64,000 nt of DNA from the NCBI GenBank assembly GCA_950295325.1, contig OX485806.1, positions 24,178,001 to 24,242,000 on the forward strand, in the 5' to 3' direction. The stretch comes from Polytrichum commune. Lineage: Eukaryota; Streptophyta; Polytrichopsida; Polytrichales; Polytrichaceae. Positions 971 through 60,600 of the stretch are shown piece by piece; positions within the stretch are counted from its first letter, which is position 1; every line of letters begins with the position of its first letter. The notes beneath the pieces were generated by a model. It was not told the DNA's origin, ran no database searches, and worked only from the letters and a program-made list of their open reading frames with translations. A program made the position numbers and the translations under genes.

Positions 971-2507
971 ATGAATTCGGTCAAATGTGGCCCTATATTT
1001 GGTACTATCCAAGACCAACCGGCTAAGCATTGTATATCTCGGGTTTTGGTTGATGGGTGTGGGTGTATTTGTGAATATTCTCTTAAAATGGTCGGATATG
1101 ATTCTAAAGTGTTGAGAATGAGTTCATCCTTAAAGGTCTAATCGGCCAAAATCGTACGTGGAAGCCACTTGTTTTTAGACCCTAAAAAGGTATTTTGCGT
1201 CGAGTTTTCAAAATTGAGCTGATTTGATCCCTCAAGTGATTGGATGCATCTATTATGTTGAGTCTCGAGTTCATCCCTTTTAGTGTACCTCTCAAGAGGT
1301 AATGACAATGCACAACCTTGTGGGATTTTCGTCTATACTTTCTTATGTTTTGGTTTAGTATAATTCCAACCATGTCCCTCATGCTACAACATGGTCCGCC
1401 ATGTTAAGCATTTGGATAACGGGTTCACATTCATGCCGGTACAATGTACGGGCGTAATTTTTCCTTTTCCTAATTCCAATCATGTGCAGTGGTTTGAAAA
1501 TAAACCTTCAAAAATAAAAATAATTTATGTGTACTCTAGATTATGACTTCGGGCCACATTTTAACAATCAAATTGTTCAATATTTATCCTCCCATCCTTT
1601 AGGGGGTTGAATAGATAACCCGAATTGAAGGGTAAGAGCCCTATGAATATCAAGAAATTAAATTGGAACAAATAATGGTTATAGATAGAAGAAGGGACCA
1701 GAAGACCCCTAGGAGGTAAATGATGTTGGGGATTGGACTCAAAGGTTGAGTTCAACTAATACTTTAATTTGATGTCATTTGCTCATGGCCTTAAATTGGC
1801 AGTAAATATACCTCATGGGCACTGCTTGATACATGTATAACATTTCATGTGCTAACTACATTGATCGCACCTAGATTATCGTGGTATAGAATTCAGTTGG
1901 CTATAAAATATGGTGGCCCGTTGTATTCTAGTGTCATTTTGGAGATTGGCATGGCTTATAAATTGCAAGCATGTCAATGTCAACATATAAAATGATAAGT
2001 GGTAACAAAATATAATGATGTTTTGGTATTTTATCGATGCTATATTCTTCAACCCACAATACTCAATTCTTCAGTGTAAGAACATTGATTTTTTATTCGT
2101 AATTTTGAACATGTGATATTGTGGACTCAAAATGGCGTAGGCCAAGAAAACCATCGTTGACTAAAATTCTAGTGAGCCACATTAACTTAGATGCTAAAGC
2201 CGTAGTAGTTCCGTGTTGTTTTATACTCTTTGGCCTAACATTGCTCTTCCCTTGGTTGCATTCCATGGGACAAGGCAAGCAAGATCCTCCTTTAATTCCT
2301 TATGGGGAGCACTTAGGCTATGTGCTATAGAATTTTCGACAAACAACTCCATTTTATTATAGTTTTCAGTCACGATCTATTTATTTGGAAACATACCATC
2401 ATCTAACTTCTTAAAAATGTTATGGGTTACTTCATCGCCTCCCAAATGTTTATACTTTCTCTAAAGAACATATAATCATAATCTTGGAACTCAGTAGAGC
2501 TTCAATG

Positions 2508-2510
<3 letters not shown>
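1..2510. other. Intergenic repeat debris, no gene
   Basis: No open frame here resembles a protein I recognise. It holds a fragment of the dispersed 'GGCACYTCCAACTCC' repeat near 262-280, also seen near 10237, 44217 (reverse) and 62845. A 'TACCACTCCAAATATAGGTG' piece near 549 is a fragment of the R1 repeat found at 5.1, 8.0, 13.1, 25.1 and 35.7 kb. A GA tract lies at 941-967. Confidence 0.6.
941..967. repeat. GA dinucleotide microsatellite
   Basis: Perfect (GA)n run of about 27 bp followed by GGGG. Confidence 0.9.

Positions 2511-2541
<31 letters not shown>
2511..2541. repeat. AG dinucleotide microsatellite
   Basis: Perfect (AG)15 run ending 6 bp before the left end of the 158-bp TIR element at 2548. 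Confidence 0.9.
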
Positions 2542-2543
<2 letters not shown>

Positions 2544-2547
2544 CTTA

Positions 2548-2705
2548 TAGCCCACCCACACTTACTGATGTGGGCCACCAATGAACGGTGAGTACCAACA
2601 AGGGCCACTTTTAGAGTTGGTCTAGCTAGTGAGGGCCATTGGATGTAACCAGTGCTAGTACTCACCGTTCACTGGTGGCATGCACCAGTAAGTGTGGGTG
2701 GACTA
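2548..2705. mobile_element. 158-bp MITE, copy 1 (family A)
   Basis: The element has terminal inverted repeats of about 48 bp: 'TAGCCCACCCACACTTACTG' at the left, and a right end 'AGTGTGGGTGGACTA' that is its near-exact reverse complement. Flanking 'TTA' on both sides (2545-2547 and 2706-2708) looks like a 3-bp target duplication, which fits PIF/Harbinger (Tourist-like) elements. A second copy of identical length is at 47889-48046. There is no coding capacity, so this would be non-autonomous. Seen: the TIRs, the flanks and the paired copy. Inferred: the superfamily. Confidence 0.8.
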
Positions 2706-2708
2706 TTA

Positions 2709-4923
2709 ATGAAACACAAACTAAAATTTCTCTCTTCTAGTTTTGTTTGTGACCATTTTTGTTGATACCAACAAATACACGTGCTTGTATACTTCATTCA
2801 CCCATTATCTTCAAATTTTGCAAATGTATGGATCTAGACTAGAAAAGTCCTAGGCTCCTTACAACAACCTCATCCGATGGTTCTCAAAATCTCTCAATCA
2901 AAGACTGTTAGAAAATATTTCCATATCCTAGTTTTCATCCATTCATTAGTTCTTGCCAAATAAGATATTCTTGGCTTCAAATTGGATACAATCTCTCATC
3001 ATTTGGCGAACTGTGGTAAGCCTCTAAAGTCAGTTGTCCTAAGCAAAATGATATGCTAAGTTGTCTCACATAAACACCTATGACTTCTTAGAAGAAGAAG
3101 AAGAAAATATTAAAGACTATGAAATTGCTTAAGTTAGAAAGTTGATTTCAAGACCTATCTTATGATATACATTTTGTAGAAAATTGACGTCTTGACAAAC
3201 TGTGACGAGCCTCTGAAATGGAACGAGAGTTCTTTAGCATATCAAGAGCTACAAATTACTCAACAATAATGTAAGACTATTTATCAATTTCTATCAACCT
3301 AAAAGTAATATAATTTTCAAAGATCATACATGAATTAATTATCATCTATCAACTAAAGAAGATAGGTCATATTATGAACCAATTTTGAAATATCAAAATA
3401 GAAAATGAACATGAAGAAACAAAATTATACTTAAAGAATTAAAACTTCATCATCAAATTTTATAATATATAAAATTTCACTTATAATTTTCAAATCGTAT
3501 TATATTTTAAATCATTAGGAAAAAAAACAACTAATATTGCCACATTTCACTAGAGATAATTAATCATATATCATTCACTTAAAGTTAAGAGGTCATTGGA
3601 GGTAAGGTGAGAGTTGATAGAAGGGAGAAGATGCAAATACTAGCCTTTGAAAGTCTAACTCTTTTGAAGATGGAAGTCAAAATTTTGAGAGATGTCGAGG
3701 TGAAGTCAAGGCACCTTTTAAAGGGTCGCATTAAGCAGTCGGGGGTGAGTGTCTTTATAGATTTGGGGCTTATCAATTCCCAATTGACTTGGTGTAGTCT
3801 CACCCACAGTCAATTTTGTTTCTAATACCTACTTCAAAGACTTCGTTCCAAATGATTTTCATCTAAACGATGATGATTCATCCATGATTAACTTTGTAGT
3901 GTCAAAAGACCTTTGCCAAATAGACTTTTACATTGTTGAAATAATTTTCATTGAGTCAAAAGATAGTTCTAACAACACTTAGTGAAGTCGATTTGTCTCC
4001 ACTTAAGGTGTCTAGTACTTGATATAATTTGGTGGACATGAACCCGAGCTTATATTTGTGACCATTGAACCTAATTCTAAAAACCAACTGGTATAAAAAA
4101 AACCTTGTCAATTTTTTTTAAGTCCTGCTTTGAAAAGAAAAGAAAAAACTTGAGCACAAGTTTAATGACAATTTATTTTTATTTTGAAACATGTATGTAA
4201 TTCAATTCACGCTTACTCTTGAGAAACTCACTCAAGCTTCAAATCCTCTCATGTTATGGTGTTTTAGATTAAGTTGGTATTCGAACTAGCCTTCAAAGAC
4301 TTGAAATTGGTAAGCACCTTTACGATACTTCATTCACAAACCTCTAGAAGCCATATATCATTAACATGGGTTAACGAGAGATATGCGTGTATTCCACAAT
4401 CTCCTCTCGTTGTGAAGGACATTTTGTTATATGGATCTTCACAATTACATTGTCATGGAAAACCTTGCATGACTTTGCAAAGGGTTCTGAAAAGAAAGAG
4501 CTTTCTTTCAAGGACGTTTTGCATTGAAGTCTTCAAGATACAGCGCAAATCCCACCTATAACCAACACCCTAAAATATTGCACAATACATGTATATTGCT
4601 TTTGGAAAGTGTCCACCATCTCCATAACATTAGGCCTACTATCAATAAAGCTTTGAACCCTCATAGCTTTCAAATAAGACCCACTTTGGTGTGTTGAGGT
4701 CTCCTTTCATTTGCCAATAACAATCATTTAAGTCATTTATAGTCTAAAAAACAATATAGAGTATAAATACATATGTTTATTGGCTAAAGTGACAGTTTCA
4801 GCTCCATGTACCAAGTTAGGGTTCCGTTCTAGACTTCCACGACTCTCACATTAACTTATCTGCAGTTGCGTCTCTAAGTGTCTTATTACTAAGAAGAGGA
4901 AGAGTCCCCTCTCACTTGGATTT
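2709..4923. other. AT-rich intergenic sequence, no gene supported
   Basis: Mostly AT-rich DNA. Short frames at 3607-3825 and 4274-4561 match nothing I know and have no supporting splice sites. No clear repeat unit was seen apart from A/T-rich low complexity near 3400-3500. Confidence 0.5.
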
Positions 4924-5006
4924 GGGCGAACCAACCCACACACTCGTTCCTTGTTAGATGCCTAAACTCTTGCCTCCAAGGAACCAGTGTATTGGTTGGT
5001 TCGCCC
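4924..5006. repeat. 83-bp palindromic hairpin, copy 1 (family H)
   Basis: The arms at 4924-4953 and 4977-5006 pair at about 27 of 30 positions ('GGGCGAACCAACC...' against '...GGTTGGTTCGCCC') around a loop of about 23 nt. Related hairpins are at 41551-41633 (same length, opposite orientation judged by the loop) and 53346-53437. The element is very small and non-coding: either a miniature fold-back transposon or a small-RNA precursor-like hairpin. Confidence 0.8.
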
Positions 5007-5085
5007 CAGCCCTCTCACTTGGCTATATGGGTTCCTATTGATGGACCCTCATGAAGGCCCTATCACGTTACCTGGGACTAAGGTG

Positions 5086-5475
5086 CGTGTGTGGGTCTTA
5101 GATGGTTACTTTTTCCTACCAGCCCACTTCTCCTAGGATATCAAATACGAGATTAGTATGAGATGGTTAGAAAATCCAATCCAAATCAAGGCCGTAGCCA
5201 TTTTCCTCGTTTTTTTGGGAGGTCATGTGCAAATCACACTCATTATCAATGTGAATATACTTGTGTTTGTTAACTGGTCATATAGGTTTTCCCAATTACA
5301 TTGATTGTTAAGTCTAGAATGGTTGTTTTATTTTGAGCGTGTAGTTTAGTCTCCTTCCAACACATGTCTCTCTGATATCGTTCTTGGAGCCACACATTAC
5401 CACGTACCACTCAACTATAGGTGTCCGATCAAGATAAGTAAGGTACCGAATTAGGCACGTCTACTTTGAGGTATG
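5086..5475 (+). repeat. R1 dispersed repeat, plus-oriented copy
   Basis: About 390 bp that aligns by eye with 8045-8430, sharing 'GTGGGTCTTA...', 'CAAATCAAGGCC.TAGCC' and 'ACTCAA.TATAGGTGTCC'. It aligns in reverse with 13080-13362 and 25100-25445. The two ends resemble each other as inverted repeats ('GTGTGTGGGYCTTAKRTGG'), suggesting an old non-autonomous TIR element. No protein. Confidence 0.7.
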
Positions 5476-7227
5476 TGAGGTGAATGTGGACTTATTTTTT
5501 GTATCCAAAACTTATAGTTGAAGTCTAGAACATTATTCACCCGGTTCCATTTTGGTTTAAAGGAAGCTTGTCATTTCTTTGAACTTACCTCCCAATGACC
5601 CAATCTCTCCTCCATATGAAGTGAGTTCACCATTTGAATTGAAGCATGGAGAAGGAAGTGCCATCCTCAGTATGAAGATATGGATCTACATAATCAATAT
5701 ATATTTATCGTTACTTTTTATGTGGTGGTGTTTCGCCTCTGAAGGGCCCCACCTCCCCTTGTGGTGGGCACATTTTCTTGGTTCTTAATGCATTTGGCAT
5801 TGGCCTTGATGGTCTTCTGTCTCAAAGGACGTCAGTGCCAAGGCTCCAACATGGAGTGATGATAATTTGTGGAATGATTTGCCTCTAGGGGTAGCGATGG
5901 GAAAAACCCTTCTTCTCGAAACCTTCTTCTCTAGGGGTGGCGAAGGAAAGAAACGTTTCCGAAGAGCGAGCCGTAGGCGAAGCAACAAACGGGGAAGACA
6001 GAAAATGATGGCAATTCGAAGATACTAGGATTGGTAGATTTACGACGTTTTCAAGGTTTCGAATTGGCGACGTGGCCTCACGAGAGGCAAGAACCCTGGT
6101 TCGCCTCCCATAGACTTCTTCTCGAAAAGAAAAAGTTTATCGTAGGATGTTAAAGACTATTATCCCCTAAAACATATGAGTCGTACAAATTAACATAACA
6201 AATTTTGGCTAGCGTTCCTAAGTAGAGATGGAAGGTGGGCCCCCCTAAATGAAGAAAAAGGCAGAGTTATCTGTGTTGGCAAAGGTAACACAAACATTCT
6301 CTTTTCCAGTCCAAACTTGTCCATTCCAACCATGGTTGTCAATTGAAGGATTATGTTTGTCAATTTGTTTTCCAAATCCGTTGTTAAACCTCTAGTTGGC
6401 AAACATAATGATTTATTCTTGGATTTTCTCATCATTAGTTGCAATGGACAAGTTGCAACAAATGGTTGGAATGGACAAGATTTTCCCTGTTGATTTTTGT
6501 CATTTGAATCTTTGAAATAGCAACAACTCTTTACCCACTTTTTCAACAAACAAGCCCATAGTTTTGGTAAATTTCAATTACCTTCCCAGTTTTGGATATG
6601 ATGCACTCACCGTGAGGCCGTGGAGCTGATCTTGCAAAACCCACATTCTCAAACTAGGTCACTCTGAATCGACGAGAATGGAATTTTGCACATGAGCCCA
6701 CCCCTCATCCTTCCATGGTAAAAACATGTCCCTTTATAGATTGAAGGTTAATTGATTTCCATTTGTGTTCCACTAGATTTAAGTTGAGATCTTTAGGCTA
6801 TTTTTGGTATCAAATCCATTGGAAAAAAGTAACCCACATTCTACTCCACTAAATTATGATATTTAGTGTCATATGGAATTTAATGTCACTATGGTAACTT
6901 TTTGAATGACACTTCTTATGAATACGTTTGCAAACATTGTCATGGATGATGGATGAGTTCATCCATTGGCCAAAGCCATGCCTTCTCTTGTCAACAACTT
7001 GTGATGAAACATTGTCACGGATGATTGAAATTTGGATGAAAACTCACTTGGTAAGTGACGGTAATTGCAACAGTGCAAATCTATAATGTCGGTGACACTA
7101 CACTATGGTTTACAATTAGTGTCCAGCAAAACAGTTAGAATCAGTGACACTAAATACCATCTTTAGTGTACTCTTTCAAGATGTTCCATTGAGTGAACGA
7201 GAAGTACCTACTGTAGTCAACCATCAA
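5476..7227. other. Intergenic, with a decayed coding-like fragment near 6.0-6.15 kb
   Basis: Short plus-strand frames near 6030-6140 ('GACGTGGCCTCACGAGAGGC' ... 'CATAGACTTCTTCTCGAA') have a diverged counterpart near 37355-37415 ('AACGTGGCCTCACCAGAAGC' ... 'CATAGACTCCTTCTCGAA'). In one frame both read like '..TWPH......HRLLLE..', so this may be a shared fragment of a transposon protein, which I cannot name. The rest shows no gene. Confidence 0.4.
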
Positions 7228-13362: not shown

Positions 13363-13740
13363 GGGCATGCTTATACGAAAGTCATTTGGCCATGGCTCTT
13401 AAGAATCCTTGAATTCTTATTGGTTGAAAGTGTCACAAGCCCCCACTTTAGGTTTACATGAGGGTAGTTTTGGACCACATTCCATGACATCTTCCGTGGA
13501 TGAAAAATCTACATGGAATCCCACATGACAAGTATGGATAATGTTGGCCGGAATTGTAGGGATTTTTTCAAAATGACTCTTGAAGGTACGCCTGAGAGAA
13601 TGTGGGTTTACACTAAGGGCTTGTGGCCTCCAAAAGACTTTGGACTATAGTCCATGGACTTCTCTGTGCTCTTGTCCAAAAAGTGAGATACCATGGTCAT
13701 TTAAGAGCCATGGCCTAATGCCTTTGGTGTAAGCATGCCC
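13363..13740. mobile_element. TIR element (378 bp) inserted in an R1 repeat
   Basis: The left end 'GGGCATGCTTAT' continues into 'GGCCATGGCTCTTAA'. The right end mirrors it ('TTAAGAGCCATGGCC' ... 'TAAGCATGCCC'), giving inverted repeats of about 45 bp. Flanking 'GCTAA' appears on both sides (one extra A on the right), so a short target duplication of about 5 bp, or a nested TAA, is likely. Uninterrupted R1 copies at 8.1 kb and 25.37 kb act as empty sites. No coding capacity. Confidence 0.75.
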
Positions 13741-14199
13741 AGCTAAGTGTTTGTTTCACATCCTATGAGAAGTCATTTTTTTAAAATGACTCTTGAAGGT
13801 ACGCATGAGAGAATTTGAGTTTACACTAAGGGCTTGTAGCCTCCAAAAGACTCTGGACTATAGTCCATGGACTTCTTTGTGCTCTCGTCCAAAAAGCGAG
13901 ATACCACGGTCATTTAAGAGCCATGGCCTAATGCCTCTGGTGTAAGCATGCCCAACTAAGTGTTTGTTTCACATCCTACGAGAAGTCATTTTTTCAAAAT
14001 GATTCTTGAAGGTATGCCTGAGAGAATTTGAGTTCACACTAAGGGCTTGTGGCCTCCAAAAGACTTTGGACTATAGTCCATGAACTTCTCTGTGCTCTCA
14101 TCCAAAAAGCGGGGTACCACCGTCATTTAAGAACCATGGCCTAATGCCTTTGGTGTAAGCATGCCCAGCTAAGTGCTTGTTTCACATCCTACGAGAAGT
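13570..14199 (+). repeat. Three tandem copies of a 213-bp unit spanning a transposon/host junction
   Basis: 'AAAATGA.TCTTGAAGGTA' recurs at 13570, 13783 and 13996, exactly 213 bp apart. Each unit contains the right part of the 13363 element plus about 35 bp of flanking R1 sequence ('AGCTAAGTG.TTGTTTCACA'). The triplication must therefore post-date the insertion. Confidence 0.9.
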
Positions 14200-14289
14200 G
14201 GGTGCAAAGAGAAAAAGTATCCAAATAACACACGTCTACCTTGCACACGCTGTGAGTCAGTTTGTGATATTTGGAAGCTCAAGCTTGGA

Positions 14290-15279
14290 AGCGCACGCAA
14301 AGTCACAGCCATAAAGACAACATAATCCATACATAAAATCCTGGCTTCTTCCAAAAGCCCCAATTAAGAGCACATTGGGAGCCATCACATTTCCTTTGAA
14401 TGTCTAATCTTTCTCCGGAAAATATGCCTTGTGAGCACGAATCAAACATGCAATCTCGAATGTTGAACTTTTGACCGAAAGTAGCTTACTTTTGCAACAT
14501 ATGCTAGTAGTGTATAATGAGAAATTCACACAATTTTTTATACCAGTATACTATGAATAGTTGACCGTATTTTTGTTTTCAATAGCATTCATGTTTATAT
14601 ACCATGCAAGATCCTTCATACCTAGGCAAAATTTGGGCCTATATACCATGTGAGCAGTGATCCATAAGCAATAACATGTGAGCTACGAGGGTTAAATAAT
14701 GTGAAACAATAGGCATGGGAACTCTATAACCATGGAAATTGAACTTACATTATGTCTTCCCAAATGAAATGACATGCTGAATGTTTTGTAAATATCATTA
14801 GAAAATGTGCAAAACTTGCAGTTTCAAAAACCTCGCATTGAAGCATGCCAAGCATGTGAAGGGCTTTTACTAACAATTAGAAATCAAATATAATTTAGAT
14901 GTCATTGTGCTCAACTTTTGTCTCAAGTGTAAGTGTAAATTATTGGTGATGTCTCACAACCCGCATCATAACTAGGGGCATTGTTCTCTACCTTCCTTTG
15001 TTGAGCTAAGTCTATATACATTAATTTATATGACAATCATTAACTTAGATCGTACTAGATGATAAAGACTGAGCATTGGCCATTTTGCAAGCTACAAACT
15101 CTATGTAGCATGGGAGTGTCATGGGTCTTGCAAGAGAAATAACAAACTCCATCATTTTGCACATGGATTGTATTTCTTAAACAAACCTTAATTATTAACT
15201 ATATTCAACTCATTGCAAACAAATGCATAATAACGAGAATACAAACTTACACACTCAAATGGTTTTGCTTCCAGATCGG
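14290..15279. other. AT-rich intergenic sequence downstream of the methyltransferase-like remnant
   Basis: No gene, repeat array or element end was recognised. It may contain the 3' part of the 15.3-19.4 kb composite element. Confidence 0.4.
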
Positions 15280-16911
15280 TTATAGTGCTAGTCCATTATC
15301 ATCCATTTGAACATAACATGATCCATTTTGTTCCATCAACATAGTTTTCTCCGTCAAGTTTTCAAACAGTGCTAACACTGCCTTAAAATGGTTGAGATGG
15401 CCTCCAAAGCCATAACATGCCAATATGAGCTCGATAGGCATGTATGGAGGCACCTAAAAGTGAAAACACGTATCATTCTTAGATGCAAAGCCATGTGCCA
15501 TAAATTAATGTCAATTTTACTTGACGTGTAAGAACATGCACTTTGTAGATGTGTTGACATCAAATACCATATCTCCAGGCTTTGTTAATGACTCAATTTA
15601 TATTAGCATCAATGTTGTGTCTTTTTCTTCGAGCTCCTCGTCGTGGAAGTGATCCATTCACGAGTTGGGAACTCTTCGTGATGTAATTCGGAATATGTCA
15701 TCTTCACAAGATTGCAACTCAATGTTAATAACCTAATGCTTCATGTAAGGAGCAAATTGTGATGGATTTTGGGAGCGTATTATGAGCAAGGTGTGAAATT
15801 GAGTCAGTCTAAGGGGGAAAACAACCAAGTTAATATCCATTTATGCAAAAATATTTATGCCAATACCTTTTGTTAGAACCATAAAAAAAATGCTTGATAG
15901 TTACAAACATCATTACCGTTCTTTTGGAATGGAAGGACATGCTAGGTGAAGCTCGTTCACACCCCACCATTTCATGAGTATCATGAGTTCATAACTCATC
16001 ACATAAGTCCGCACATCATTTTTTGCTTTGGCGCTCTCAAAAACAATAAGCAAAACATCTTCATCTTCATCATCATCATCCTATAGGATAGCATTGCCAA
16101 ACTCAAATATGGCCTCCACATATGTGCATATTGTGTTTGTTTCTACTATTGGAATAGAATGGGGTGGGCTTGTTAGATGTGGTACAGAATAACCCTCTAG
16201 AAGATCGACAATGATCAAATCCAATCCCCCATGATTGCAAATATACGATGAAACCTTTGTGTTGTATTTATTTGCTGCCTAGACAATGGGACAAAATGTT
16301 ATAAATTTAAAAGAAAAAATAACAATTCCTTAAACAAAATGCAAGACCGATGATTTAACCAATAAAGTACCTTATTCACGAAAACCATGGTCTCCAACAA
16401 GAATGGTTGACCTTTCTTCATTGTTGACAATGTGCTCGTATTCCCAATCACAACATGCATGTTGGTAGTAGAAGTTGAGGAATTGCTAACGCCATGCTCT
16501 TGCATGGGTCTTGTTGCACCAATGTGGAAAGATTGCGATTTTTGTGCAAGTTGGGAAGGCATATGGGAACGAGAGATTCAACATAAGAGGGCGGTGGTGA
16601 ATGAGCAACAATACTAGGTTGTGTGACCGGGACCGGGTCCAACTTCAAAACTTTTTTACGGTTGCCCTTTCGCAGTGTACCAACATGCACTGCACTTTGT
16701 GGAGCATCCAAAGAGTCATGCACAACAAAGTCTACAAGTACCCCTAATGAATTTGGTTTGCATTTTTGTCGCTCTTCATGCAAATATTATCTCCAATGCC
16801 CAAATGATTCTATGTGATTATGCCATATGCAACATGGGTTATTGCAAGTACATCGAGTGGGTTGGTATCAACCGCTTGCCATTCATTGTAGGCTTTGTGC
16901 CACCCAAGTAC
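15280..16911 (-). pseudogene. Decayed, spliced beta-class DNA amino-methyltransferase-like gene
   Basis: I assembled four blocks on the minus strand. (1) 16911-16747, 55 codons (YNEWQAVDTNPLDVLAITHV), one stop; then 16760-16371 in two shifted frames. (2) 16278-15917, after a 92-bp GT-AG intron (16370-16279): 120 codons, one TAG at 16083, with 'GGLDLIIVDLLEGYSVP' where a motif IV (DPPY) would sit. (3) 15808-15521, after a 108-bp intron: 'LLIIRSQNPSQF', then 'EEKDTTLM', then 'SLTKPGDMVFDV' (15582-15556), the usual 'QKP..L(M)..fs.pGD.VlDpF' layout. It carries TAG, TGA and TAA stops. (4) From 15453, after a 67-bp intron: 'VMALEA', then a shifted frame ending at 15280. The block order IV, target recognition, X/I fits the beta class of N4-cytosine/N6-adenine methyltransferases. 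Stops, frameshifts and lost catalytic residues (DLLE; no FxGxG) make it a pseudogene. The family call is my pattern recognition, not a search result. Confidence 0.6.
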
Positions 16912-18484
16912 TCAAAATTTTAGTGTAAGGTATGCCTTACCCCTCCATTATTCCTTGCTACCTTTGATGCTAGGATTATATACATCCATTTTGCATCATT
17001 GATTTGTCTTTTGTTTGTGTACACCTGGGTGTTTATGATCACCATATGTTTAATGGGGTGTGTTGAGAGTCCATAGATTCCGCATATAGATTTGTGACAA
17101 ACAATGTTAGAAAAACCCCAAATGTGAAAAACTTTGTGATGATCATGGCAACAAATAAATAATTTCTAACATATTGCCTACTTAGAATGCCTATTCCTAG
17201 AGGGAAAAAATCCTTCAAGGATCTTCATGGGTGGTTGTCATGGTAAGAAATTCGACCCTTTCCTCCAAAAGTTGCAAGAACTTTGTGGCAAAATCAAAGC
17301 AATTTATTCGTAGTGAAATGGGTACAATGGAGAGTGTCATGGCTTTGAAAGACCACTCACGATCCAAGTATGTCCAGAACACTAGGTCACTTGGTCAATT
17401 AGAGGATAAGGTGTTTGTGTTCAAGGTGTGCGTTGATCTTCCAAGTAGTGGGGTGAATCTACGAAGTGAGTACAATCTAGGGGTGACATGGGCAATGCAT
17501 GGGTTAAGTAAAATTGTAAAATTGTAGAGTCACAAAGTGAAGACAATTCACACAAGAGAATGCGGAAAGTAGCACAAACATGAGTTGGAGGACAAAGGCA
17601 ATTGAGAGCCATGGGAGGAAGACACAATTCACTTCATGGGGAACCAACAAAGCCTTGGGAACCACTCAAAAGGCTTGGAAATGGCACCGGAGGCTAGGGA
17701 ACCGAGAACAAGGTTTGGAGAATGTACGTTGTGAGAACTCAAGCAATAGGGAATTTAGGGAGCTTGAGAGCTTTAATGATTCATTTATAATGAATTATAA
17801 ATGAGGTTAAGCATATGAGAAACCAACTCTTTAGATGACAATCTCTTGGATGGACATAACTACCTTAACCATTTTTGGGATGAATGCCGTGAATGGAAGT
17901 TCATGAGATAAACATTAGATCAATGTATGCGCATAAAATGAGTTTTATATACCTCATAGACACATGAAAACTCAAATAAGCTAAATTTCTTTAAATATAT
18001 CTACATAGACAAAATTAGAAAATATTAATATACAAACTGAAGAATAGGCAATTTGAACATTTAGTAATAGGGGAAGGAAGTGTAACTGCCAAACCCAATA
18101 ATTCATTAATTTTGAAGACTATATAAAGGAACCACATTGAGCATCTACGGGACCTCAATAACATCAAACATATCACATGAGTGTCTCAAAGATTATCGGA
18201 AACGCATTGATAAAGACCCTTCAAAGACTATTGGGAGTGCATTTGTGAAGACCCTTCAAGCTTGAAAAAGTGTGAAGACTTTTCCGGGAGCATAAGATCT
18301 TAACACAAGGATTGTGCACTTGAAGGATCCAAATTGTTTGCTTCAACAAAGAGGAAATTAGACATGCTGCCAGGGTCCAAGCACAAATCTCATTGCCTAG
18401 ACAATTAAACTACTCAATTACTTGCCCAAACACAAGATCCATGAGGGCTCACATCAAGGGGTGATTGAAGTTCTATAAAATATT
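16912..18484. other. Spacer between two divergent decayed genes
   Basis: About 1.6 kb between the minus-strand methyltransferase-like remnant and the plus-strand SWIM remnant. Plus frames at 17231-17527 and 17580-17804 may be decayed coding sequence, but no domain is recognisable. If the two genes belong to one element, this would hold the shared divergent promoter region and the missing N-terminal parts. Confidence 0.35.
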
Positions 18485-19350
18485 ATGGTGGCTAATATTA
18501 GCAATGTCTTGGAGTCAAAATGCCATGCATCCCAATGGCATATTGCTTGGTTGTCATGTCCATCCAAGCAAGAATGTCAAGCTTTGTAGGCCAATACATG
18601 ACATGCATACAAGGCCAAAGTCACAAAGGGAGTTTACGGCAATCTTGCTCAAACTTGCACATGCATAAAGAAGGAATACCAATTCAACAACCACAAGCCA
18701 TTTGATTTTGGATTTACACCAACGACATTGATTGTTGAATGAAGGAGAGAAAAAGAAAAAGATTTTGGATTGGCCTTCTTTTCCAAACACATGGACAATG
18801 AAGATGGGGACAAAGCTTTCTTGAGAGGATTTTTTTTGCATTGGAGGACACTTGATTCTAGTTTCAACACATGGAGGTATTGTTAGCACAACGTTGACTA
18901 CATTGTATGCCCAACCTCCCCATACCTAGGGCACATTTTTGTGTGCCTTTGAACCCAAATGCACACCCCAACAACAAATTCTATAAGATCGCACAACACA
19001 ACCATGCAAGCCCCTCTACCGGAGCAACACAATAAGTGGGAGAGTGCCTCACACATGAACGAGCATTATGTGATAGTTCTTGTGGCCATCCCGTACCCTG
19101 GATACAACAACATTATCACCATTGCCTCCAATGAGTAGAAGACATACCTTGTCTCAATTATTGATATTTGCCTCGATTTCACAAAATGTCATATGTATCA
19201 TTGGGGAAGAGAGGTCAATGGGTTTCATGCAAACACTTGTATTACATGTTTAGATATATATGCAAAGTTGACTATGCCAATGAGAAATTCATACACAAGC
19301 TCATTCACCTTCTTGAGCTCGTTGGTGTGGCGGAGCAGTCTTGGTGTTGA
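18485..19350 (+). pseudogene. Decayed SWIM zinc-finger protein, transposon-like
   Basis: One plus frame is readable from 18485 to about 18955 with several stops (blocks 'CHASQWHIAWLSCPSKQEC', 'FFLHWRTLDSSFNTW'). It continues to 19137 ('YPGYNNIITIASNE'), then shifts by one base into 19168-19350: 'PRFHKMSYVSLGKRGQWVSC' followed by 'KHLYYMFRYICKVDY'. The C-x-H of a SWIM finger (CxCxnCxH) is intact at 19228-19236. The first CxC is spoiled by the frameshift just before PRF. SWIM fingers are typical of MULE/FAR1-like and other transposon-derived proteins. Its position, divergent from the methyltransferase-like remnant 1.6 kb away, suggests one mobile element. No transposase catalytic triad could be located. 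Confidence 0.6.
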
Positions 19351-20485
19351 TTTTTGGATGCAAATGTGACATAATATGTCTAAATAATAATTTATGTTTG
19401 ACCATCTTTTTTCTTGGTCCGTAAGTATGTTTGGCTTCATCCACCTCCCCCCCCCCCCAAAAAAAAGGAAAAAAAGGAAGAAAAAAAAAAGTCACACTTA
19501 AATAAGGAGCACATAACCATAGCATAATAGAATGCATGAATTGTATGGTAATAGACCTCCATTCCTTTGAATAGATTTTTACAGTGTACAACATTTATAG
19601 CCAAATTTGTCTAGTTTCACATTAAATTGTCTAAATATGGCAATTGTATCATATTTTGCATGCTCATTGCTCACATGCTCACTTCTCACATGCTAGCTTC
19701 CCTCATGAATGAGAGACACACCTCACCCTTGTTCATAACCACAAGTTGTAAACCTAAGATGTGAGAAATCAACTTAGACTTGATAGTGTTATTCTCAAAT
19801 TATTCATAATTGGAGTTAGCTTCATTATTGTATTTTACTATTTTGGACATGTGCCTTTCTAGTCCAGTGCATTTGTGCATGTGAATTATGAACTAGTAAA
19901 ATGTGGCCCCCAGTGGTCCAAGCATGCCACCTCACCATTTTCATCCATTGTTCTCAAAATTGTTGGGAAAGGTTGCACAAGATCCTCACACCGCCACATT
20001 GTCCGTTATATAGTAGATTGCAAAGGAGAAAACTTTATTGGGTGTTAAAGCATTTGATCGGGGAAGATGTTGTCGGCACAATGAGAGTACATAGACAATT
20101 AATATGAGTATTTTTGTCCATTGTGTTATTTCTATGGATTCTTATTGTTTCCAACAATAATAGAATCAACCTAGTTGCCGATCGCCCATAAATTTTGGGC
20201 CGGTACCTACTTTGATTTGTTTATTCATGAAATGTTGAGGGTTCACCTAGGACAATTTGCAATAGACAGTTGCAATGGACAAGATTTATCCTAGTGATCA
20301 TGGGTGGAGAGCCATGCATTTTGGGCATACAAAACTTCATTTTTAGAATTATTCTGAGACAATCAAAAAATATTACTACAATGCCAAAAACCATACGTAA
20401 TTAGCAAGGACTTGTGACAAAGAGCATGGCAAGCTCTCTTGGGTGCACTCGGTGAAACCAAAACAAGCCCTAACTTGTAAATACA
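19351..20485. other. Intergenic, no gene
   Basis: Poly-C/poly-A low complexity at about 19447-19492. The remaining short frames have no support. Confidence 0.5.
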
Positions 20486-54604: not shown

Positions 54605-57600
54605 TTGTGCGCGTGTTGTGTTGTGTGTGTGGGGGAGGGAGAGAGGAGAGAAGAGAGAGAGAGAGAGAGAGACAGAGGGTGGCTGCTGGTGCGCGTGCTG
54701 CCGCCCTGCCCTGGTTATAGTTCGTTTCTGGTGTGGCGTGGTGCAGTGTGCTGCTGCTAAGCAGTCGTGGCTAGTAGTGCGTGAGGGGAGAAGGTTGCTT
54801 TGTTGTTTTCTGAGCGGTGGTGGTGGTGCGAGATTAACAAGATTGGCGAGATTTTCTGTGTAAGTGGTGATGTACATTTCTTGGCCTGCGGCTTTGTAGA
54901 GACGCGCAGCTTGCTGCACGGGAGTCAGAGAATTTTTTGGCGTGTGTGTGTGCCGCTTTTCTTTTTGATTTAGCGGAGGGAGAGGAGAGGGGAGGGGAGG
55001 GAGGGGGTCAGTTTGTTTTTTTTTTGTTTTTGGTGCGTAGTGCAGTGTGTGCCACCGTGACTGCGGGAAACAACAGGTGCAGTTGGCAATGTCCACCAGG
55101 TCGTGAGAGACGCGTGGCCGTCAATACCGAGGAGGAGGCGCAATTCCTCCCTGCTTTTTTCTCGCGTCTCGTCAGGAGCCGAGTCCCTCTCCTAGTGCAA
55201 CTTAGAGCGTAGCGTTAACGTAGCGGGCGGAGAGTCCCTCCCACGCCGCCGCCCTTTTCTTTATAATCTCTGCAGCGGATTTGTTGTTCCTCGAGAACTC
55301 TCTTCGCAGCGGTGGTGGTGAACTCACTGCTGTTTCATCTTGCTCGCGAACTCGCCGTTGTAAGTGACATTGCCGAGAGAGCTTGAGAGAAGGATGCCTA
55401 AACTTATGCATACCTCTTGTGATGATGACTTGGCAAACAAAGACGGAGCAATGCTAACTCTTCCTGTCCCCGCCCGCGCTTTGTAGTCAAATTTCTTACG
55501 AAGGAGAGAACCGTGATCTGAAACCAGCCACATGCTTCCCCGGGATCTGATTCATTTTACAGATATCTCCGTAGCAATCCAAGGGATATAACTACTAGTT
55601 TAAAATTGCCACCGTCGTATGAGTTTACTTCGTGTTTGATTGATTGTTGAAAGCTGTGGATACGAGTCCAGGAGCTACCTACGAGGTTACTTCACACCAG
55701 TTGCAAGTGCAAGACACTTTCTCCGGGGAACTTGGCACGCGACGTGCCAGAGAGAGGGAGAGAGAGAGAGAGAGCCACTCTTCCGTAAATTTACTACGAT
55801 TCACTTTTGACCTTCTACAGTCCCTCCGGACTGGAGAATATCATCCCGTAATATTCATCCAGGCTCTCGCTTGCGAACGCACCCCTTCGCCTTTCCTAAG
55901 GTCGCGGATTTTCCACAACAGTATGTGGTGTGAAATGCATCCTCGTTCATATGCTTGAATTTCATCTACACATTTACACACCCGGCGAATACGGATCAGT
56001 GATCAAGTTGCTTTGTGGTGCAGTCTTTTCAAAATCTTCTCGGGCATGCAATTCAACTCTTCGGCTTGACAAGTCGTGGAGTCTGCTACGCACGTCCACG
56101 GTGCGCTACATCAAATAGTGATCTCTTGTGTTCGGTTCTTCAAGCACGTGATTCAGGTGCGTGGTCGTTTGGAAGCTCTCTTTCTCTCTCTAAATCACCG
56201 TTGAAGACATTATGCTGAGGCTTTGCATCTGTGAAACCGCGTCGTACTGCCCATTGAGGTCGTTCAACCGCATTGCATGATTTACTGCAAGTTTCACAGC
56301 AATTCTGTGCGGTTGTCGATTGACTTTTTGGTTGTCCCGCGGTATTCCTCTCGTAGATTACGAAGTTTACGTCAAACCTCTGCACAATAAAGGGAAGTGT
56401 GTTTGTAAATATTACTCCACGCATTTATCCAACAGGCCTGCTTGATATCGAGGTGTGAGGTCCTTTGTTGTGTGTTTTAATCTTACTTACTCTCTCCATT
56501 TCTGTCTTAGACTGCTCTTGTTGATGTTAGCGCAGGTAGTTTGGTCTGGAAACCTACTAGAGAGATAGATGCCAATTCCTGGATCGATCCGTACCTTGTG
56601 CCAGAAGCTTAGCGCCTTTTCATAGACATGTCTTGCTGTAGATTGTTGCACTCCCATTGCTTCATCGGATAGATCACATGGTGTACTGTCCCTGTCTAAA
56701 TCCTGTCCTTCCAGCAAATCTACAGAGGTAGATCTGAATGTCCTTTCCTTTCCTTCGGAGGAGGTTTCGTGAATCAAAGCCTTCATAATAGAACTAAACC
56801 TAAATCATATGCCGTGGTGAACTAGTCGCTGGTGGCCTTAAAGCAGCGGGGGTGAATTACTCCACCTCAGCTGCGTCGTTAAGCTTATTATGCTAAAATA
56901 GTTCGTGGAGGACATGTACCCGGAACGTATTCCAGTTGGAAGTTTGCGGGTTTGTTGTTACCCAATTCTTACATGAACTTGAATAGGGAAAGGAGTCGGC
57001 AGTCAAGTTTGTCCTGAAAGAGAGTCTACCTGTGGACAATATCGTTGTATTTTGTGTTTATATTGAGAGAGTTCTGAATGCGAGTCGTCTGAGACAGAGG
57101 TGCTATTATTGCATGCCCCTGCCTTCAATTGAAAACGGAACTTGTATAGGGATGTAGATCTTTCTCCCGCATTCAGTGCAATAAGCTTCAACCTGTCGAG
57201 TGCATGCTAACGGCAACCTTCTTCTGTTATCTGCAGGAGTAACGCCAGTGGTCAATCTCTCTGAGTGAGATCGTAACGACTTGCGCAATGACCTGAAGCC
57301 TTTTCGTGCCAAAGCTTGCGTCCACGAAGTTCGATTTGCTGCAGCCACATTACGTTTACGATTGTTCTGCTTGCCGCAACCTGCAGTCTGCTCCAGCTCT
57401 GTTTTCCCTGCATACAATCACGTCTGCAGTTCCTTGGCTTCAGTGGCAATGGAGTGGAGTTGTTAATGACTATGCAAACAAATAGCGCTATGCAGAGCGG
57501 AGAAAGCTAGTATTTGCTTACTCTAGAGAACAGTTTTGTAGGAGTAGAGGAAATCTTGGATCTTTGGAAAAAATATATACCTATATAGGGGAGTGCATCG

Positions 57601-57663
57601 GGCGGATTCGCTAGGAAAGGACGCTTGTGGTATTCTTTTCACAGGGCAGGAAAGGCAGTTAGC
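54535..57663 (+). other. Probable TPP 5' leader with intron
   Basis: Candidate leader donors with perfect GTAAGT are at 54860 and 55360. A good acceptor ('TATTCTTTTCACAG', ending 57644) lies 19 nt before the TPP start codon. A leader exon from about 54535 to 54859 spliced over a 2.8-kb intron is the simplest model. The interval is free of recognised transposons and has mixed GC content, consistent with retained gene structure. Long Pro/Ser-rich minus frames over the GA tracts are rejected. RNA evidence is needed to fix the exons. Confidence 0.45.
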
Positions 57664-60600
57664 ATGATTTTCAAGGTGAGCGACGTTGATATTTGTTTCG
57701 GGGTGGGGGACAGTGAGCCAGAGAGTAAGCGGCTACATGCCAGCCTCTCCAGTTTAGGTGGTGAGGGGATGGTGGGTGGAATGGGATTGAGGACCAAGCG
57801 TGCATCAGTTTGTGAGCCTGCAGCCTCATCCGCTTCAACATTGTCTGTGTCTTCATTGTTGTCCACCTCTCCTGCAAAGCCAACAGTAACAAATGCGAAC
57901 TCTGTTTGTACAAAAAGTTTTTCCATCCTGCCGAGAAAAAACAACAATTACTCTGGCCACAAGGGTCATTTGATCACATGGATTGATGCGATGAGAGATC
58001 AGTCTCCACCCCGCTTCCACTCACTTCATGGGGATACAACAGAAGCTATGAAGGCAGCGGTGCATAATGCTTGGCTCGTAAGCATCTTTAATACCTGACT
58101 ATTTGGAAAAGCTGTTGAATCACTCAACCGCTCATCTCCTGGTGGTACTCCATTTCTGAAATTTTGCGTGTGAGCTGTGAATCTCACTAACTATGGACCC
58201 TTGATGGGTCCGAGTTTCCTCAGTTAATGTACTCGTTGGATAGTGGATGGGCATTTGTTATGGGTGGACTTATGAACTCATATTTCTGTAATCTGCAGGA
58301 CAAGCACCCATCGGCCCTGAGCTCAAACTCGCTTGATAGATTGCTGAAGCTAGCAAAATCGAAGCAGATTGTAATATTTCTAGACTACGATGGCACACTT
58401 TCGCCCATAGTAGACGATCCGGACAAGGCTTTCATGTCAGACGAGGTGAATATACTCTCAAGCATCATCTCCGTCAATTGCTCCTACAAATTGCTGCAAG
58501 ATCTTTCAAGCTGTACACTTGATTTTTTTTTTGAAACTTCAATCTTGCACAAATTTTTGATCAACTGAATAATACGACTGTGTGGAGGGTGCTATACTAT
58601 GTTTTGAGTATATGCAAGGTGGTGGTGAGGAGATCTTAATCTAATGTGTCATTAATTTGTTTGCACGCTTCTGCAGATGCGAGCTACTGTCAAGGAATTG
58701 GCCACTTGCTTTCCAACGGCAATTATCAGTGGAAGGGCACGACCGAAGGTATGGCCATCTAAGACTTACTTATAATCCGTCCATGATTCACGCCTGGTAC
58801 AAATTTTGTGATATATCTGGCTTAGCTTGAGCTCCTCCATCATCAGTTATGTTAACAAATTTGACGGCTCCTATAAAAAGTCTATTTCTTCCAAAGTACT
58901 GTTGTGTGACCCGCCCATCTCTTCGTTGTCTTGCAGGTGTACCAATTTGTACGACTAGCAGAATTGTATTATGCAGGAAGCCATGGCATGGATATCAGTG
59001 GTCCTGCGCAGGCATCCAACGGTTTTAGGGTGAATGGAAAAATTGTTAAAGACAAACATGTAAGCTCTATTCTATTTGCAGGATCTTCTTGTGCAAGGCT
59101 TTGAAGTATATGAGATGTTCGTAGAAATTTGTGCTGTAAACTGCATTCATACTAATCTTGCTCTTTAATGTGATTGCAGGGAAACGACATGGTTCAATTT
59201 CAGCCAGCCAGTGAATACTTGCCATTGATTGATGAGGTACCCCTTCTTTCTTTCTGGACTTCATTCCATTTAAGCCCTGAAGGTTGTGAATGTACTTGAT
59301 AAGTTTTTGTCCAAGTAGGCGTTGTTGTTGTCCTTAGTTGTTGAACGGATTCATGTCAAGTGGCAATTGCATATTAAAAGCGAGAATCTGTTTAAACTGG
59401 ATCCAGGTTTGCAAAATCCTGATTGAAAGTACAAAAGTCATCAAGGGAGCAAGGGTGGAGCACAACAAATTTTGCGTGACTGTGCATTTCCGACGTGTAA
59501 AAGAAGAGGTGACTTGAATACTCAGCCTGCCACTGCTTTCTTCCAGTGATTCCTACTTGTGCACATCAAGTCAGCGTTGATGATGATGTACTACTCACAT
59601 ACTAGTTGTACTTTGTTCACCTAGCATAAACCTTGTCAACCAATGTTGTGTTTATTTATGCCGTTTCTGCTCGAAATATGTTTCTTGGAAATTATACTGA
59701 CATTCATAACCTTCCTGACACAGCATTGGAAGGCGCTTGCAGAGAAGGTTGACAATGTCTTGAAGGATTTCCCAACGTTAAACCTGACTCATGGCCGGAA
59801 GGTACTGTTTTTTTACTCTGTTCCTTGTGTCCAACTATTTGCACATTCCCCAATATCTCCGTGGAAGTGTTATCGTTGCAGGCAGCAGCTCCTGGCAATG
59901 CTAGCAGTGAGAAGCTGTATATTCTAATTGTCTGCACCTATCTGTCCTTCCTTAACAGGTCTTGGAGATCCGTCCAGCCATTGCATGGGACAAGGGCAAA
60001 GCTGTAGACTTTCTTCTGAGTTCTCTTGGTAAGCTACATTTGCAGGACTATGTTTGCACCAGTGAAGGTTATTTTGCTCATGTTTGAGGAGTGTGTGGTT
60101 TTGTATCGTTACTTTATGAAGAGGTGAAGCCGTTAGAAAGACCCTCTGAATGTGGAACCTTGGTCCTGCAGGTTTTGCTGATTCCAATGACGTACTGCCT
60201 GTGTATATTGGAGATGACCGGACTGATGAGGATGCATTCAGAGTATGCCTCTTCTCCACTCTGACCTTCTGTTGTATGTTGTTTGAAGGAGGGAGCAAGT
60301 AGGTTAGAAGGTGTGGAGGCAGTCTGGTAGATGAGACTTTCTTTCATGTCCCAATGTATAATAAAGGATTCATGAGTTTGGAGAAGCACCAAGGTCAGAT
60401 GTGTGGCACCGATTTACATCTGAATGCTGTGGACTCATTGTTGGAAATCCTTTTTTTTTCTGGGTAATGGCCAGGTGTTGAACGACATGAAGCATGCCTG
60501 CAGCATTCTGGTGACTTCTGTTCCTAAAAATACAAAGGCAACTCTTTCCCTCCAGGAACCTGCAGAGGTACCTAGTCTTCCTACACACCATCTGTTAACA

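Follow-up and report, generated by a model that had tools for sequence, protein, structure and literature searches.

Introduction

Retrotransposons with DNA methyltransferase (MTase) genes include DIRS elements with a Dam-like MTase, SymbioLINE-Dnmt, SymbioDIRS-Dnmt3, and KnitGypsy-Dnmt3, and the portion of the source consulted gives a Ka/Ks below 0.2 for the last of them (PMC5890265). The plant element described here resembles these as a selfish element with a captured DNA-methyltransferase gene under selection. In that portion of the source, the MTases are Dam-like or C5-cytosine enzymes, whereas here the element is a DNA transposon, and its domain is beta-class-derived and lacks the catalytic motif. 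Likewise, a TET/JBP gene, from a DNA-modification family, accompanies the transposase in certain fungal DNA transposons; the enzyme covered by the consulted part of that report is a dioxygenase that acts on 5mC and not an MTase (PMC12730594). Bacterial-type amino-MTases in eukaryotes are represented by bdelloid N4CMT and by the Marchantia 4mC methyltransferase, the latter in a bryophyte (PMC8885841). N4CMT differs in its SPPY motif and its demonstrated activity, and the Marchantia enzyme is described as recruited for sperm 4mC; neither is described as a transposon gene in the consulted part of that source (PMC8885841).

Duplications of 9–10 bp, a C-terminal CxC..CxH, and an oppositely oriented second gene are among the features of Mutator-like elements (MULEs), according to the consulted part of a survey (PMC6446971). 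VANDAL elements with VANC and Phytophthora MULEs with SET, as far as covered there and in PMC5735166, share with the present element the 9–10 bp duplications, the CxC..CxH (SWIM-like), and the opposed second gene; in addition, its non-coding part has tandem repeats, as is the case for the targets of VANC. It differs from the MULEs of these partial sources in that no Pfam transposase domain was detected in its family and its accessory gene is MTase-like, whereas theirs is VANC, SET, or PMD. The word methyltransferase does not occur in the main text of the survey (PMC6446971).

Known transposon cargo comprises C5-MTases, Dam-like MTases, TET dioxygenases, SET domains, and VANC. In open-access full-text searches, no published transposon with an adenine or amino-MTase was recognised among the matches listed, by their titles and abstract beginnings. 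A beta-class-derived MTase domain in a many-copy plant DNA transposon would be a new kind of accessory gene.

Results

Structure of the window gene

The window, a stretch of 64,000 nucleotides (C4:24178001-24242000), comes from an assembly of 407.8 Mb in 64 contigs, with ~406 Mb in the seven large contigs C1–C7. In a sequence-only reading, an intron-bearing, decayed gene of the beta-class amino-MTase type had been noticed on its minus strand, with introns of 92, 108, and 67 bp. The first two introns are present as GT..AG and lie at the same places in the relatives L038 and L054. The third, for which a donor at 15520 had been given, was misplaced: in the relatives, the donor directly follows the motif I glycine (..STG or ..ATG), and its window counterpart at ~15541 is decayed. 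The continuation VPPYMPIEL.. had been read in the wrong frame. Exon b comprises 120 codons with one stop, and exon c 88 codons with three stops. In exon d, VMALEA does stand at the place of motif II, with the frame interrupted there by a frameshift. The coordinates of all features are collected in Table 1.

Table 1. Features of the decayed transposon copy in the window (positions are those of the window)
Feature	Position	Strand	Basis
Decayed compact transposon copy, two head-to-head genes	about 14635..19704		Terminal motifs, MTase remnant, and transposase remnant; limits inferred from terminal motifs
MTase-side terminal region, GCTCAC-type repeats, outward ..ATCACTGCTCACATGGTATATAGGCCC	14635..14700	-	Match to relatives' MTase-side end
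Exon d remnant: GASIHAYRAHI, then frameshifted VMALEAISTIL (motif I tail, motif II)	15340..15453	-	By-eye comparison with L038/L054 exon d
Exon c remnant, 3 stops: strand after target region, motif X-like EEKDTTLM, motif I start GDMVFDVNTST	15542..15808	-	Profile match 15804-15523, domain E 0.002
Intron 2, 108 bp, GT..AG	15809..15916	-	Position same as in relatives L038, L054 (by eye)
Exon b remnant, motif IV place DLIIVDLLEGYSVP, 1 stop	15917..16278	-	Profile match 16275-15922, domain E 6e-23
Intron 1, 92 bp, GT..AG	16279..16370	-	Position same as in relatives L038, L054 (by eye)
Exon a, end (TSTLSTMKKGQPFLLETMVFVNK)	16371..16451	-	By-eye likeness to L038 ISIQTLMENGGHEHPLMLKTFEFVTK
Transposase remnant, N-terminal/middle part	17061..17482	+	tblastn, two pieces, E 3e-31, vs C1 element transposase
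Transposase remnant, C-terminal part, degraded SWIM-like region	18244..19335	+	tblastn, three overlapping stretches: E 1e-27, 2.6e-20, 1e-6
Transposase-side terminus, GCTCAT/GCTCAC repeats then CATGCTAGCTTCCCTC	19659..19704	+	Match to relatives' outward end

The exon b remnant is 45% identical to L038 over 110 residues (E 1e-23), and motif IV of the window reads DLLEG. The window gene is dead through several lesions: it has acquired stop codons and a frameshift, and one splice donor has decayed. Some or all of introns 1 and 2 are missing from L041 and from the 567-aa copies described below. The longest open stretch in the window gene is 112 codons, and 3.6% of 500 base shuffles contained one as long; the open frame by itself speaks weakly against chance.

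Membership of the window gene in a repeated family

Since a Pfam search with the spliced translation of the window alone gave no match and the open frame was weak evidence, a profile was built from five same-genome relatives, with the window sequence left out, and searched in tiles against the six frames of the window. It matched the minus strand at 16275-15922 and then at 15804-15523, in order, with a whole-tile E of 3e-27; another piece of the same gene was matched in another frame at 15718-15617 (E 0.012). The best place in the window outside the gene had an E of 0.41, and the best match in the reversed-window control had an E of 1.1. The profile match is strong evidence that the window gene belongs to this family. 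A single comparison of the spliced translation with an intact genomic copy gave an E of 0.010.

The blocks picked out by the sequence-only reading are real: they are found in order by the relatives' profile and align to the family, with LDLIIVDLLEGYSVP corresponding to LIIADLPEGLPVP, EEKDTTLM to REKDSESM, and SLTKPGDMVFDVNTST to ALTTPASVVLDAYASTG. The lack of a profile match, which had been named as speaking against that reading, applies to the window translation on its own (none in Pfam) and not to its relatives.

Copies, ends, and transposase of the element

The window protein matched at least 143 stretches of the genome, on all seven large contigs and on C37, three of them being the window itself (141 of 808 candidates scored); these are exon-level rows, of which one copy may give two, and the 140 further stretches are a lower bound. 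The 567-aa protein gave 85 rows. A transposase-like gene stands head-to-head with the MTase-like gene in all five relatives that were fetched far enough on that side (C1, C4, C2, C6, and L056), as well as in the window. No transposase was present in the fetched stretches of L040, L041, L052–L055, and L057, which barely or never pass the gene start on that side. Weaker transposase pieces in the window continue down to 16725 (tblastn E 5e-8, 21% identity).

Termini are common to the four elements that were read end to end, all of which have target-site duplications of 9–10 bp. The C1 element (C1:9648778-9663944) is 15,167 bp long with a duplication of 10/10, the C2 element (C2:12291381-12303974) 12,594 bp with 10/10, and the C6 element (C6:27508165-27521021) 12,857 bp with 8/9, the last being weaker evidence since the tandem repeat of 139 bp in which it sits occurs on either side of the element; the duplication of the C4 element is 8/10. 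The relatives measure 12.6–15.2 kb (three measured). The window copy is ~5 kb long and, like L056, has none of the upstream domains; these two look like a compact variant of the element.

On the MTase side of the window copy, 14666-14635 is the second-best match in the window, both strands considered, to the 32-base end of the relatives (21/32), and this end is outside the eight best matches for the shorter 20-base end. On the transposase side, no other place on either strand of the window matches the outward 20-base end of two relatives as well as 19685-19704 (16/20 and 17/20); for the 32-base end, the terminus comes second (21/32) behind 45179 (22/32). The window copy has imperfect ends and no recognisable target-site duplication. 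It is itself an ordinary dead transposon.

Four aligned members of the transposase matched no Pfam family at E ≤ 10, the MULE transposase domain included. A SWIM match scored below the cut-off (E 0.039 and 0.0052; 16.7 bits vs. 19.6), and in the PDB the transposase profile had two matches, with E 0.4 and 0.57, neither of which is named a transposase. Read outward, each end of the element shows GCTCAC repeats and TAGC..CCC, which are imperfect as terminal inverted repeats. The duplications of the relatives (10/10, 10/10, 8/9, and 8/10) fall within the 8–11 bp of Mutator-like elements. The element can be called MULE-like in behaviour and is a candidate Mutator-like element.

The transposases of the C1 and C2 elements share 83% (TpA) and 86% (TpB) identity, as against 29% between the MTase core of the C2 element and the core of the C1/C4 type, for which the row from L004 (C4) was used. 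The accessory gene would thus diverge much faster than the transposase or be exchanged between elements.

Several other features were seen in and around the full-length elements. The two genes of the C2 and C6 elements are separated by arrays of tandem repeats with a unit of ~360 bp (L038 1-1825, L039 258-2125). The transposase side of the C4 element is interrupted by an insertion with gag-like ORFs, identified by eye (L042, E4 1374-6801), which has the look of a nested retrotransposon. A second transposase-like gene lies on the plus strand shortly past where the C6 element ends (L039 7893-9998), perhaps belonging to another copy. Upstream of the MTase gene, the C1 (L007) and C4 elements have LGRGSYG, HCDLSFTNII, and GDWG, which we take to be kinase-like motifs and which were undetected in C2 and C6; a protein-kinase-like reading of this region was rejected, with no kinase match in Pfam or the PDB. 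L038 (1924-2508) has a conserved upstream domain whose W[DE]GNHR..AW-like motif presumably resembles the ParB/Srx motif, and L040, L041, L052, L053, and L007 have equivalents. The ParB-like reading of this domain (WDGNHR..AW) had no support from the PDB profile or Pfam.

Relation to beta-class amino-methyltransferases

Searched with PF01555, the genome had matches at five places with E ≤ 0.001, three on the small contigs C10 and C12 and two on large contigs. The latter two are near-identical intact ORFs of 567 aa from one subfamily, with 35.3 and 32.5 bits against a cut-off of 26.7; a third near-identical 567-aa copy is on C5. Beyond contaminants and the transposon family, this whole-genome search found nothing at E ≤ 0.001, a search that an intron-cut host gene could escape.

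A six-row alignment of the core (A1) was composed of the five relatives and the window; because it includes the window row, the independent test of membership is the window-free profile. PF01555 was matched by five of the six members at E ≤ 1, a score being given for the first member alone, whose trimmed core reached 37.3 bits. Scanned at full length, L041 had no PF01555 match. Against two prokaryotic MTases from the small contigs of the assembly, A1 gave an E of 1.5e-10 in hhalign, over 57 columns around motifs X and I. In the PDB, it matched two entries of DpnA (4.6e-8 and 4.7e-8) and CcrM (8.1e-6, profile positions 69-249, with the motifs in order); the remaining ten of the 13 PDB sequences listed had E 0.05–0.8 and were MTases mixed with unrelated proteins. 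The permuted order of motif IV, target region, X, I, and II is present in A1 and in the CcrM match.

These profile comparisons show the C-terminal domain of the transposon gene to be a homologue of beta-class DNA amino-methyltransferases. The likeness to PF01555, CcrM, and DpnA lies in profile similarity and in the motif order IV - X - I - II. The catalytic DPPY of these enzymes is replaced in the transposon family, mostly by D[LIF]P[EDK]G. A QKP-type motif X is typical of beta-class MTases, whereas the transposon family has a REK-like motif at this place. Unlike theirs, the plant gene is transposon-encoded and in most subfamilies intron-bearing.

The small contigs C10 and C12 (47 and 61 kb; L001–L003) carry phage- or bacteria-like ORFs, with three places matching N6_N4 MTases, and are probable contamination of the plant assembly. 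In L003 (1-1848, C10), the MTase ORF is interrupted by ~300 residues ending in ..DGIVTHNC that look intein-like by eye. A viral source of the family was also considered and rejected: an A1 scan of viral contigs by a single peptide pattern matched nine stretches, none of which was confirmed.

Catalytic motifs and selection

The place of motif IV was read by a regular expression at 39 of the 43 loci scanned; L011, L022, L030, and L056 gave no reading. In this set, L020 and L040 are one place, and L012 and L013 gave identical motif and score. Of the 39 readable loci, 28 had the form D[LIF]P[EDK]G. The other 11 read DIPYG (L046), DLPED, YLPEG, NLPEG (two), DLLEG (three), NFLEG, and QFPDG (two, the L052/L053 subfamily). 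DPPY, SPPY, or NPPY was found at none of the 39, and none had the catalytic pattern [DNS]PP[YFW]. The intact copy L046 is alone in having DIPYG among close copies reading DIPDG.

The FxGxG pattern of motif I was absent as well: one subfamily has VGTG, and elsewhere mostly xSTG or xATG is found, with one glycine kept. Of the five aligned relatives, four have lost one glycine of this motif and kept one, and all five retain the motif II acidic residue together with the TG of motif I.

For the selection test, exon b was taken from 26 loci, and the 22 with an open frame and the expected motif were kept (L015, L019, L022, and L029 were dropped). Twelve pairs were compared over 96 codons. Seven between-subfamily pairs had dN/dS of 0.05–0.14, values that are rough, as dS was 1.5–2.7 and near saturation, and that are biased downwards by the choice of open-frame exons only. 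Four closer pairs had 0.11–0.26, and one pair gave no ratio as its dS was zero. Among the three near-identical 567-aa copies, dN/dS was 0.49–0.89 (577 codons). The codon comparisons show that the MTase-like domain is under purifying selection between subfamilies, and the altered motif IV was probably kept by selection while the subfamilies spread.

Discussion

The window gene is very probably a dead accessory gene of a two-gene plant DNA transposon, and a non-methylating, DNA-binding role forms part of the same reading. Descent of an intron-bearing, dead gene from beta-class amino-MTases, as had been claimed from the sequence alone, is supported by PF01555, DpnA, CcrM, and the relatives' profile. 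The further idea of a eukaryote-adapted host enzyme, with a relative depositing 4mC or 6mA, was not supported: the gene is an accessory of a DNA transposon present in many copies, and DPPY, SPPY, or NPPY occurs at none of the 39 readable loci.

As to function, we tentatively propose that the domain has ceased methylating amino groups and has taken on a DNA-binding role. The loss of amino methylation is suggested by motif IV, which is mostly D[LIF]P[EDK]G and not [DNS]PP[YFW]. The MTase-derived protein would act as a DNA-binding accessory on the element's own repeats and could promote transposition or work against silencing, in the manner of VANC in the VANDAL elements of Arabidopsis. Besides the motif change, this guess was guided by the contrast in divergence between transposase and MTase and by the ~360-bp repeat arrays. 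A DNA-binding, non-methylating protein of MTase origin with element-specific targets is in our opinion the likeliest mechanism, although we would give it less than an even chance of being correct. Its more specific form appears rather unlikely: a non-methylating, sequence-specific factor acting on the tandem and subterminal repeats of the element, which would have evolved independently of VANC as another anti-silencing system. Judging from the motifs and substitution patterns, a selected, probably non-methylating DNA-binding protein, perhaps with an anti-silencing function, fits better than a writer of 4mC or 6mA.

Under the main rival, the transposon protein would still methylate amino groups in spite of its odd motif IV and would mark its own DNA with 4mC or 6mA. 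Purifying selection on the domain speaks for this, the motif II acidic residue and the TG of motif I are kept in the five aligned relatives, and the intact copy L046 even reads DIPYG. However, this tyrosine looks derived, since DIPYG stands alone among DIPDG close copies; four of the five aligned relatives are short of one motif I glycine, and the complete lack of DPPY, SPPY, and NPPY at the readable loci further argues against activity. We consider an active enzyme improbable.

It is far less probable still that the window holds a host DNA methyltransferase gene, spliced and later lost, with the other copies being ordinary gene duplicates. Introns and a family profile would suit a gene of this kind, but the structure of the element already contradicts it: at least 140 further matching stretches are spread over the seven large contigs, the ends are shared, 9–10 bp duplications occur at all four sites read, and the transposase is a constant neighbour wherever it was fetched. 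Finally, a chance resemblance to motifs in a decayed stretch with no tie to methyltransferases, for which the missing Pfam match of the window translation and an at most mildly unusual open stretch could be quoted, is ruled out for practical purposes by the window-free profile (E 3e-27) and by the matches of the family to PF01555, DpnA, and CcrM.

Selection despite a rewritten catalytic motif would offer an experimentally accessible MTase homologue kept for a non-canonical purpose. PF01555-like matches in plant genomes need not signal 4mC or 6mA. The interest lies in the transposon family and not in the window copy.

Other features of the window

A trehalose-phosphatase-like ORF lies at 58191-58568 (PF02358, E 2.6e-5, below the cut-off), and the ORF preceding it at 57589 had no match (region 57589-58568). 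Three tandem copies of a 213-bp unit, 92–94% alike, lie at 13562-14200, close to the MTase-side end of the element but outside it.
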